From the NCBI GenBank assembly GCA_947503115.1, contig CANNCS010000003.1, positions 1-64,000 of the forward strand: a stretch of DNA of 64,000 nt, written 5' to 3'. A program made the position numbers and the translations under genes. Numbering within the stretch: the first letter of the stretch is position 1; every line of letters starts with the position of its first letter. The notes under the pieces were generated by a model, which was not told where the DNA came from, made no database searches, and worked only from the letters and a program-made list of their open reading frames with translations. This document shows, piece after piece, positions 4,252 to 7,016 of the stretch. Source of the stretch: an uncultured Marivita sp. GTDB lineage: Bacteria > Pseudomonadota > Alphaproteobacteria > Rhodobacterales > Rhodobacteraceae.

Positions 4252-4390
4252 GGCCGATTAATGACGTTCTGGGAAACAGATCACAATCCGGACATGAAAT
4301 GATACCGTGAGCGGCACAGATTCGATGCGCTTTGGTCTTGGTAAACATGTTAGCAAGTCTTTCGCAGAAGTTTGGAAAGCGGGTGATGTT

Positions 4391-6721
4391 ATGGTGAGTT
4401 CGAACAAGATACTCACGGTATCCTACGGGACCTTCTCATGTACACTCGAAGGATTCGACCAATCCTTCGACACGATGAAGGCGATCTCGGAGTATTTTCG
4501 CGATCTCGCTCAGGATGACCGATATTTTGGTGCAGAACCTCCGACGCCCGACGCGGAAATGTTGGCCCGGATCGCGGAGCGAGAAATCGCACGCAGGGTC
4601 GAAGCCCGCTTTGAGAAAGGTAATCTGGTTCTGCGTCCCAGTGATGATGCCGAGCCGCCGCGAGGGGATGTCGCGCCGCACTCATCTAGGGACGCAGCCC
4701 CCGAGGGCGCGACAGCTGGCGTGGCTGCCACTGCACTGGCTGTCGCGGCCCGATCGGCAGAGGCGCAGCCCCTTGTCGCCTCCCCATCGACTGATGAGGA
4801 CGAAGTCGAAACAGCTGATCTGGACCTGAGCGATCTCGACATCTCAGATGAGACCGAAGCAGAGGAAATGCCTATCGACATCTCGGATGTCGATCTGTCC
4901 GACATATCGGTCGAAACTGCCGACGCTGATGTGATCGCATCACATGATGACGATGTTTTCGGAGCAAGCGAGTACGATGATGCAGACTCGAGCATCGACG
5001 ACCTAATCGCCGAACAAGAAGAGCTTGCAGATCACCGCGCCATTGCAGCTGTCGACGTTTCCGAAGCAGAGATCGTCGCCGAACCCACCCCGGTTGTCAC
5101 TGACTCGGTTGCCGACAAACTTCAACGCATTCGCGCTGTCGTCGCATCCAAGACGCAAGCTGCACCTGAATACATCGAAGACGAACACGCCATGTCTGGC
5201 CCCGATGGCGATGGCAATGACGAAAACGATGCCATCGACACCGAAGAATTCTCCGCGCTCGATGACAACCTTTTCACCGACACGATTGCCGCAGTCATTG
5301 CCGACCAGCTCGACTCCAACGAAGACGAGGATGACGACCCGCTTTTGCCGGAGATGTCTTTCGCCGATGACGAAGACGCGTCAGCCGCCGTCACCAAGGT
5401 CGAAACCGAAAAAGACACCCAGAGCGAACTTGAAATCCTCCGCGCCAAAATCGCGGAGCTGGAAGCACAAGCCGCAGCGGCCAAGGCGACCGAAACCATC
5501 GACGACGATGAGGACCAAGACACTCTTGAGTTCGTTGGCTTGAATGACGACGACGATGAGGATGATACCCTCGACCTATTGCCAGACGACGAAGACGACG
5601 AAACTGTACTCTTTGCCGATGACGAAGAAGACACTGACGCGCCGTTCGTCCTCCAAGATGCCGTGGCCGATGACGACGAAGAAGACGAGGCACCACAACC
5701 AATCGTCGCCCGCGTGACCAAAGCCAAGCGCGCCGACGTCGAAGCTGCGCTCGCTTCCGGCCAGATCGAAGAGTACGAGGACGAAGACGAGGACGCACCT
5801 CTTGCCGTGGTCGAACCTGTACCCGGTCTCGAAGACAGCTCTCTGACTCCTGAGCAAGAGGCAGAATTGGCCCGCGAACTGGCCGATCTGCACGCTGAAA
5901 TCGACGAAGACGACGACTGGAACATCGACGAAGACGATGAGGATGCGATCCTGTCCGAGGCAGACGCAGAGGAAGCAAGCGCTAACATCCGCAAAGCGGT
6001 TAAACTGACCAGCCCTGCGCGCGCGATGCTGACTGATACATCCATCGAGGAAGATACCGAATCCGTCGAACGTCTGGTGGGCAAAACTGACACCGAGATG
6101 GAAGAGCCCGAAGGCAACCGTCGCCGCAGTGCCATTGCCCATCTGCGCGCCGCTGTTGCAGCAACCAAGGCCGACCGCATCCTTGGCTTCGGAAAGAAAA
6201 CCGTTGATGAGGAAGAGCCGTATCGCGAGGACCTCGCCGATGCGGTACGCCCGCGCCGCCCTAAAATTTCTGAAACCCGCTCCGCCCGCCCCGCCCCCGT
6301 ACGCCCGGCGCCGCTCAAGCTGGTTGCAGAACAACGGATCGACGTCGAGGCCATCAAAGAGGCCGCACCCGTCCGCCCCCGCCGTGTGATGCGCAATGTC
6401 GAAGTTGTCGAGACCGCCGATACGACGGGCACTGACACGGGCTTTGTCGAATTCGCCGAAAGCCAGGGCGCACACACTCTGCCCGAACTGCTAGAAGCAG
6501 CGGCGTCGTACATGTCGTTTGTGGAAGGCCGCGACCAGTTTTCGCGCCCGCAATTGATGACCAAGCTGCTTCAGGCTGAAGGCGAAGCAAGCTCGCGCGA
6601 AGAACGTCTCCGCAGCTTTGGCCAGCTTCTGCGCGAAGGCAAGATCGAGAAAAAGGGCGGTGGCCGCTTTGCCGCCTCTGACAATATCGGCTTCAAACCG
6701 GACGCCCGCGCCGCGGGTTGA
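4391..6721 (+). CDS. highly acidic conserved protein of unknown function
   Basis: A 776-residue protein with three parts. Residues 1-75 are a conserved-looking module (MVSSNKILTVSYGTFSC followed by a dynamin-like FDTMKAI segment and PPTPDAEML). About 500 residues are dominated by Asp and Glu, including many runs such as DDDDEDD, with one predicted coiled coil near IAELEAQAAAAKA. A basic linker and an ordered C-terminal helical module end in the last 80 residues (LPELLEAAASYMSFVEGRD onward). I recall the N- and C-terminal blocks as shared by Rhodobacterales homologues, some annotated without support as CheA. There are no catalytic motifs. In-frame alternative starts are GTG 4307 and ATG 4325; none has a strong ribosome binding site. 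It is monocistronic, ending at a strong terminator. Confidence 0.65.
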   Translation: MVSSNKILTVSYGTFSCTLEGFDQSFDTMKAISEYFRDLAQDDRYFGAEPPTPDAEMLARIAEREIARRVEARFEKGNLVLRPSDDAEPPRGDVAPHSSRDAAPEGATAGVAATALAVAARSAEAQPLVASPSTDEDEVETADLDLSDLDISDETEAEEMPIDISDVDLSDISVETADADVIASHDDDVFGASEYDDADSSIDDLIAEQEELADHRAIAAVDVSEAEIVAEPTPVVTDSVADKLQRIRAVVASKTQAAPEYIEDEHAMSGPDGDGNDENDAIDTEEFSALDDNLFTDTIAAVIADQLDSNEDEDDDPLLPEMSFADDEDASAAVTKVETEKDTQSELEILRAKIAELEAQAAAAKATETIDDDEDQDTLEFVGLNDDDDEDDTLDLLPDDEDDETVLFADDEEDTDAPFVLQDAVADDDEEDEAPQPIVARVTKAKRADVEAALASGQIEEYEDEDEDAPLAVVEPVPGLEDSSLTPEQEAELARELADLHAEIDEDDDWNIDEDDEDAILSEADAEEASANIRKAVKLTSPARAMLTDTSIEEDTESVERLVGKTDTEMEEPEGNRRRSAIAHLRAAVAATKADRILGFGKKTVDEEEPYREDLADAVRPRRPKISETRSARPAPVRPAPLKLVAEQRIDVEAIKEAAPVRPRRVMRNVEVVETADTTGTDTGFVEFAESQGAHTLPELLEAAASYMSFVEGRDQFSRPQLMTKLLQAEGEASSREERLRSFGQLLREGKIEKKGGGRFAASDNIGFKPDARAAG

Positions 6722-6744: not shown

Positions 6745-6770
6745 AAGGCCGGACATTCCTGTCCGGCCTT
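6745..6770. terminator. bidirectional intrinsic terminator
   Basis: A perfect 10-bp GC-rich stem (AAGGCCGGAC / GTCCGGCCTT) with a 6-nt loop sits between two convergent genes. It is flanked by A and T runs on opposite sides, so it can end transcription of the acidic-protein gene on the plus strand and of the purA-DUF2842 operon on the minus strand. Confidence 0.85.
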
Positions 6771-6794: not shown

Positions 6795-7016
6795 CTAATC
6801 CTTGGCATCAGGGTCCGGCTGACCGATCCCCTTGAAAACAAACTTGAACGGCACCGCCCAAAGTATCCCCAGAACGACATAGACCAAAAGCTCTACCAGA
6901 AAGGATGGCCGCCCCAGCCAGTTGAGCACCGTAACGCAGGCGATCACATAGGCGGGCATACCCACCAGCAGGATAACCAACGCCCACCGTTTCCTGGCTT
7001 TGTAGCTCAGCGCCAT
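6795..7016 (-). CDS. DUF2842 small membrane protein
   Basis: A 73-residue inner-membrane protein with two hydrophobic helices (about residues 11-33 and 40-60), starting with a basic MALSYKARKR segment. Length and composition match DUF2842, a small alphaproteobacterial family without a known role. A near-perfect Shine-Dalgarno (AAAGGAGG) precedes the ATG. The gene begins 17 bp after purA and shares its transcript. Confidence 0.75.
   Translation of the reverse strand: MALSYKARKRWALVILLVGMPAYVIACVTVLNWLGRPSFLVELLVYVVLGILWAVPFKFVFKGIGQPDPDAKD

Follow-up and report, generated by a model that had tools for sequence, protein, structure and literature searches.

Introduction

In the delta subunit of RNA polymerase, an acidic part tunes the affinity for DNA. 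In Alphaproteobacteria, the polar organising protein PopZ is usually encoded in a pcm–tolC neighbourhood. The intrinsically disordered region (IDR) of PopZ has an Asp plus Glu (D+E) fraction of 0.29 and a net charge per residue of −0.28 (PMC9512792).

Here we describe P0001, a 776-residue protein encoded in a 64,000-nucleotide stretch of DNA from an uncultured Marivita sp. (Rhodobacteraceae), to which we refer as the window. P0001 resembles PopZ in its layout, with folded parts flanking an acidic IDR, and in its charge density (family median −0.245 versus −0.28). Judged by its sequence, however, it is not PopZ, because it has no PF10691 match, a different C-terminal end (C-end) and locus, little proline and no correlation between linker length and charge (rho −0.06), and because the same genome has a separate PopZ-like gene.

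Reading frame and locus

The P0001 frame was found where a sequence-only reading of the window had placed it (Table 1). Matches start at query residue 1 in all 80 relatives kept from 571 loci, which come from genera of Rhodobacterales or from MAGs whose titles are general, and a start codon stands at that position in each (ATG in 78, GTG in 2), which makes the ATG at 4391 very likely the start of P0001. The protein contains 26.8% D+E and carries a net charge of −137. The 12 neighbouring reading frames tested contain only 5.5–18.6% D+E, so the acidity is a property of this gene and not of its surroundings. Within P0001, the acidic linker spans 465 residues with 33% D+E, followed by a slightly basic segment that carries conserved motifs (residues 561–676, net +5); both ends are near neutral (net −6 and −3). 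The earlier reading had thus recognised a genuine acidic region but overestimated its extent, which is about 60% rather than two thirds of the protein. On a charge–hydropathy plot, the linker and the basic segment fall on the disordered side and the two ends on the ordered side, the ends barely so. Searches of P0001 against Pfam and NCBIfam gave no model at or over cut-off, and a literature search by titles and abstract beginnings, conducted without a locus tag, returned no described function.

From recognition of their sequences, we take the neighbouring genes to be thiN, a DUF2842 gene, purA, secG and pyrG. A divergent thiN lies upstream in 80/80 named loci. On the convergent side, DUF2842 was seen within 1.5 kb in 38 and purA in 37 of the 77 loci where 800 nt or more could be inspected, numbers that are lowered by short flanks. 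The divergent thiN and the convergent DUF2842–purA pair leave P0001 with a promoter region to itself and without a partner in an operon from which its function could be read. The proposal that the gene is expressed alone between strong boundaries stands for the layout only, namely the divergent thiN, the hairpin and the convergent DUF2842–purA. The DUF2842-type small protein of the window is encoded at 6795–7016 and adjoins purA.

A simple scan upstream of the P0001 gene gave no sigma-70-like promoter. Cell-cycle control through GANTC sites was considered and rejected: such a site occurs at most 160 nt upstream in 72/80 near relatives, but at genus level in only 18/43 regions (two genomes counted twice), which is the chance expectation (shuffle mean 19.7); the excess among near relatives results from common ancestry. 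A CtrA-type TTAA-N7-TTAA pattern was found in 0/80 upstream regions.

Table 1. Features of the P0001 locus, with positions in the window
Feature	Position	Strand	Basis or remark
Intergenic region with divergent thiN	4252–4390		Strongly conserved within Marivita
P0001 coding sequence, 776 aa	4391–6721	+	ORF, dN/dS, orthologues
N-end module, residues 1–90 (KILTVSYGTFSCTLEGF...DRYFGAEP)	4391–4660	+	dN/dS 0.031, profile, low-confidence model
Acidic linker, predicted disordered, residues 96–560, net −133	4676–6070	+	Composition; absent from same-locus short forms
Motif A, residues 239–251 SVADKLQRIRAVV, within acidic linker	5105–5143	+	KLxRIR in 83/94 proteins
Motif B, residues 441–454 RVTKAKRADVEAAL	5711–5752	+	Basic core in 41/94 proteins; alignment
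Motif C, residues 483–504 SSLTPEQEAELARELADLHAEI, acidic-helix look	5837–5902	+	Very loose pattern in 77/94 proteins; alignment
Motif D, residues 576–596 NRRRSAIAHLRAAVAATKADR, basic amphipathic-helix look	6116–6178	+	xxIx[HQ]L[RK]AAVAA in 66/94 proteins
Motif E, residues 611–624 YREDLADAVRPRRP	6221–6262	+	[YF]RxxLxx[VAM][VM][RQ]P in 79/94 proteins
Motif F, residues 638–651 RPAPLKLVAEQRID	6302–6343	+	PLxL[VA]xxQR[VI] in 92/94 proteins
Motif G, residues 660–666 PVRPRRV	6368–6388	+	[VI]RPRR[VI]-like element in 86/94 proteins
C-end module, residues 685–776, winged helix (predicted)	6443–6718	+	AlphaFold2, fold comparisons, profile
Terminator-like hairpin, 11 pairs, between the P0001 gene and convergent DUF2842	6745–6770		

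Selection and conserved parts

Among 12 Marivita-group sequences (the window and 11 others), the median of pairwise dN/dS values was 0.031 for the N-terminal end (N-end), 0.047 for the C-end, 0.056 for motif A (residues 235–252) and 0.105 for the basic segment. The low values of the ends, motif A and the basic segment indicate that the frame is under purifying selection and encodes a real, selected protein. For the linker the median was 0.277, a rough value since linker dS was frequently above 1. The linker thus appears to be the least constrained part of P0001, changing faster than the ends yet still constrained.

Motif order was constant in 81/81 proteins having at least four of the five tested motifs. 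By the patterns used, motif B was absent in 53/94 and motif D in 28/94 proteins. Both anchors of the linker were found in 65 of 94 proteins; its net charge per residue in these has a median of −0.26 and lies between −0.33 and −0.14. In a second linker set (91 of 92 proteins) the median was −0.245, with a median D+E of 0.30, and the linker in the window has −0.29. Linker sequence and length drift, and charge density stays roughly constant in the long forms.

Fold of the two ends

The AlphaFold2 model of the C-end had a mean pLDDT of 82.7, and 53 of its 105 residues reached 90. Its elements (H26–40, H48–59, H65–77, E81–85, E88–91) form a three-helix core with a beta wing, and in this model the C-end is a winged-helix fold. 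In a fold comparison, 972 of the 1000 listed chains reached a Z-score of at least 2, many of them winged helices; the neighbours included the WHB domain of cullin (Z 8.6), MukE (7.9) and the C-terminal domain of the kleisin Scc1 (7.5), as well as DNA-binding winged helices (ORC2, SSV1 F-93). The score of MukE ties with those of cullin, ORC and others, in a range that the tool calls common, and Foldseek returned no E-value below 0.001. The predicted fold is clear, whereas Z-scores of 7.5–8.6 single out no nearest functional relative; although MukE, Scc1 and cullin share the fold, the C-end has no significant sequence relation to them in Pfam and PDB searches. The net charge of the C-end ranges from −1 to +7 in 21 proteins, and a value near zero gives no encouragement to the idea of non-specific DNA binding. 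The earlier picture of two ordered ends flanking a disordered acidic region, in a scaffold or condensate, was borne out in part: it agrees with the composition, with the charge density and with the C-end being modelled as a winged helix.

The N-end model was poor (mean pLDDT 63, pTM 0.37), with a possible beta-hairpin followed by a helix. The best Z-score for this poor model was 3.4, and four of the top seven rows were titled ZapA. On sequence, ZapA was set aside for the N-end, as there was no alignment in either direction and the scores ranked among shuffles; the window's genome also carries its own ZapA besides P0001. A weak but repeated match of the C-end (window 6404–6718) to mitochondrial ribosomal protein S31 is probably due to chance, with Pfam matches in 7/21 members (best E 0.033) and a PDB E-value of 0.13. 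An AbiEi match in PADLOC (E 0.0067) was not significant.

Distribution in Rhodobacteraceae

In a set of 295 Rhodobacteraceae genomes, one per genus, the N-end profile matched 242 and the C-end profile 244; among good genomes only, each matched 221/260. Across the class (289 sampled genomes), the N-end profile had four matches, all in Rhodobacteraceae, and the C-end profile five, of which the fifth (G159, E 3.2e-6) lies outside the family. Outside the family, only scattered short proteins with a common C-end were found, and the N-end had no match in plasmids or phages. P0001 thus appears to be family-wide in Rhodobacteraceae and hardly to extend beyond it, and the claim of conserved ends holds past close relatives. 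A gene with no Pfam or NCBIfam match over cut-off is carried by 242/295 sampled genera of one family. A weak N-end match in G043 (E 9.4e-4) looks like a chance ORF.

The sole listed genome with two N-end matches, G019, contains a stand-alone 74-residue N-end copy (L047:5962–6183) amid four genes for dynamin-like GTPases (Dynamin_N matches with E-values of 4e-10 to 2e-17).

Short forms and gene absence

We inspected the surroundings of thiN in 18 genomes with no profile match or only a weak C-end match, and located thiN in 17. The P0001 gene was cleanly missing in 10 of these 17; where it is missing, DUF2842 is the direct, co-directional neighbour of thiN, 11–414 nt away. In G349 the locus held other DNA, in G030 and G362 it was rearranged, and in G024 and G033 a contig end lay near it. 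G358 had a 55-residue ORF with a C-end match (E 0.0029). G031 encoded a 314-residue orthologue with a net charge of −1, its C-end found by profile and its N-end, which the profile did not find, guessed by eye.

In a further 28 genomes picked for divergent ends, a C-end match was present in 27. In four of them (G453, G538, G477 and G334), the place between a divergent thiN and a convergent purA is taken by a gene for a short protein. Both ends were found by profile in G453 (210 aa, net −1, N-end E 8e-20), G334 (352 aa, net −9, N-end E 3e-19) and G538 (225 aa, net −9, N-end E 2.5e-4). The G477 protein has 184 residues from the first in-frame ATG (242 in the open frame) and a C-end frame without an N-end by profile. 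By eye, motif D is retained in G453 and G334, and the G453 protein consists of little more than the N-end, the C-end and motif D, with almost no sequence between them. Five genomes thus have a short, near-neutral form at this locus, three of them with both ends by profile. Since some same-locus relatives lack the linker and still have both ends, the giant acidic linker seems to be optional, and the ends and motifs seem to be the parts that are kept. Loss of the gene in several genera shows that the role of P0001 can be dispensed with there.

A quick tree of PurA, calculated without a mixture model and flagged with a warning that long branches meet, covered the window and the 64 of 115 loci with 390 residues of PurA. 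On it, the four short forms (G453, G334, G538 and G477) need four changes, at least three of them forced by starred branches, and absence (12 rows, with G031, G024, G033 and G358 not scored as absent) needs seven, at least four of them forced. The longest branches (G030, G362, G333 and G393), whose placement is unsure, all belong to genomes without the gene, so the gene may have arisen after their split. The long-linker, linkerless and gene-less variants at one locus offer a test of what the linker contributes to the conserved ends.

Proposed function and comparison with PopZ

With the scales about evenly balanced, we read P0001 as a Rhodobacteraceae-specific and probably cytosolic scaffold or adaptor: its ends and motifs would hold partners, and its linker would be a tunable repulsive spacer. 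The N-end would associate with itself or bind one partner, self-association being a guess given the poor N-end model. Other partners would be bound by the basic segment and by the winged helix, for which a protein would be more likely than DNA, as its net charge is near zero. The acidic linker would set the reach of the molecule and prevent over-packing; it would modulate the function rather than make it, because some lineages without it keep both ends.

A different reading makes P0001 a condensate hub like PopZ, with the ends and motif helices providing attraction and client binding, and the linker repulsion and fluidity. The PopZ-like layout agrees with this, as do the linker medians, which lie close to the PopZ values cited above, and self-coacervation could arise from an acidic linker lying beside a basic segment with motifs. 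We nevertheless consider this reading rather unlikely. The C-end is a predicted winged helix and not the PopZ oligomerisation helices, and P0001 did not match PF10691 (DUF2497) up to E 10. Median proline content is 7%, compared with 23% in PopZ, and the linker is several times longer than that of PopZ. The length–charge compensation reported for PopZ was not found in the P0001 family (rho −0.06, p 0.59), and short forms without a linker exist. The locus also differs, being thiN / DUF2842–purA and not pcm–tolC. Finally, the window's genome encodes a separate PopZ-like protein of 427 residues on another contig (G000:C67, L254:3830–5113, + strand) that falls under the DUF2497 cut-off and lies beside ORFs that look by eye like pcm and tolC.

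Similar PopZ-like ORFs were seen in G004, G028 and G029. Rhodobacteraceae PopZ seems to have diverged enough to miss the Pfam cut-off; matches to PF10691 over cut-off are rare in the family and occur in G024 and G033, genomes without P0001 matches. The idea that P0001 is a "missing PopZ" was dropped because the window's genome and some others have such sub-threshold ORFs.

A more specific scenario, in which a short hairpin-plus-winged-helix ancestor was joined by the basic segment and a 280–830-residue spacer to give a second, PopZ-independent hub, with reversal in some lineages, is in our view doubtful. If true, it would mean that a single syntenic locus offers natural alleles of three kinds, long, short and null.

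An upstream palindrome and the C-end as a possible regulator

Alternatively, P0001 may be a DNA-binding regulator whose winged helix reads a site, perhaps in its own promoter, and whose linker tunes DNA affinity as in the RNA polymerase delta subunit. Beyond the winged-helix model of the C-end, this reading draws on a palindrome, GTTC-N8-GAAC, which occurs 63–76 nt 5′ of the start in 24/116 upstream regions, always with a spacer of eight. Shuffles gave a mean of 1.2 and a maximum of 6. It occurs in some other genera (for example L084 and L064) and was unmatched in the window, in the window's genus and in 92/116 upstream regions. Upstream of thiN, it was absent from 16 loci that showed no long gene, as well as from 6 forms that are short or divergent (17 rows plus 6, with G031 in both and the G033 stretch partly visible). 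In seven genomes chosen for having the palindrome, its 12-base version gave ten matches, seven at the P0001 gene, as follows from that choice, and three elsewhere. Three is also the number for a control pattern, so exact sites of this kind gave no hint of a regulon beyond the P0001 gene.

This pattern would fit autoregulation by a winged helix, though the palindrome is unmatched in the window's genus; it may instead be part of a promoter or an operator of thiN. The near-zero net charge of the C-end also argues against a regulator, and no known DNA-binding family scored over cut-off. The Pfam model of the delta subunit (HARE-HTH) did not match P0001 or its C-end (E up to 10), nor 21 C-end members (E up to 1). 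We judge a regulatory role rather unlikely.

Distant short proteins sharing the C-end

Short relatives of the C-end were found in G159, G080, G235, G803, G030 and G396, with 162–169 residues from the Met used (the frames are longer). In all six (L117, L202, L203, L204, L318 and L319), the C-end match outranked 1800 shuffles, with E-values of 2e-8 to 0.0065 against 0.28 for the best shuffle, and hhalign aligned the C-end with three of them at P 9.4e-7 (probability 91). By these comparisons, their C-end is clearly homologous to that of P0001. The short proteins start with a hairpin-like pattern, KIxIKxGxxxxxxEG, which resembles the N-end by eye. The hhalign comparisons with the N-end were in register (P 0.0044 and 0.008), and in HMM tests most short proteins stayed at shuffle level, with G523 at rank 1 of 3311; homology of the N-end is only suggestive. 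Unlike P0001, the short proteins have no acidic linker, no conserved motif segment was seen in them, and they are scattered at other loci. In G030 and G396, there is no long gene at the thiN locus. The short family had no match in viral contigs, and the L117 protein none in plasmids.

These relatives could mean that P0001 is the domesticated, linker-expanded descendant of a former defence-type protein, the short forms persisting in anti-phage cassettes. Beside the C-end homology, this very unlikely origin finds some encouragement in a gene next to L117 with a weak PD-T7-3 match (E 1.4e-5) and a gene of similar appearance next to L202 (by eye). That downstream gene is only weakly defence-like, however, the N-end homology is unproven, as the hhalign P-values and shuffle-level ranks show, and two of the three short proteins in genomes of the family (G803 and G396) lie near a lepA-like gene (by eye) with no evident defence context. 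It is extremely unlikely that the acidic polymer itself is the function, as a cation buffer or osmotic filler: its D+E content over 465 residues and several relatives with marine-sounding names (from titles only) would fit, but neighbouring proteins are not unusually acidic, the conserved parts are the ends and motifs, and some same-locus orthologues lack the acidic linker, which weakens the earlier suggestion of cation buffering.

G159 and G080 have a similar-looking second gene 3′ of the short-relative gene. In G159 (L117:4833–6598) it belongs to a three-gene set, in which a winged-helix-like protein of 173 residues accompanies the short relative and the PD-T7-3-like gene. This set is a possible uncharacterised defence cassette; the HEPN proteins listed in PMC10952713 include PD-T7-3.
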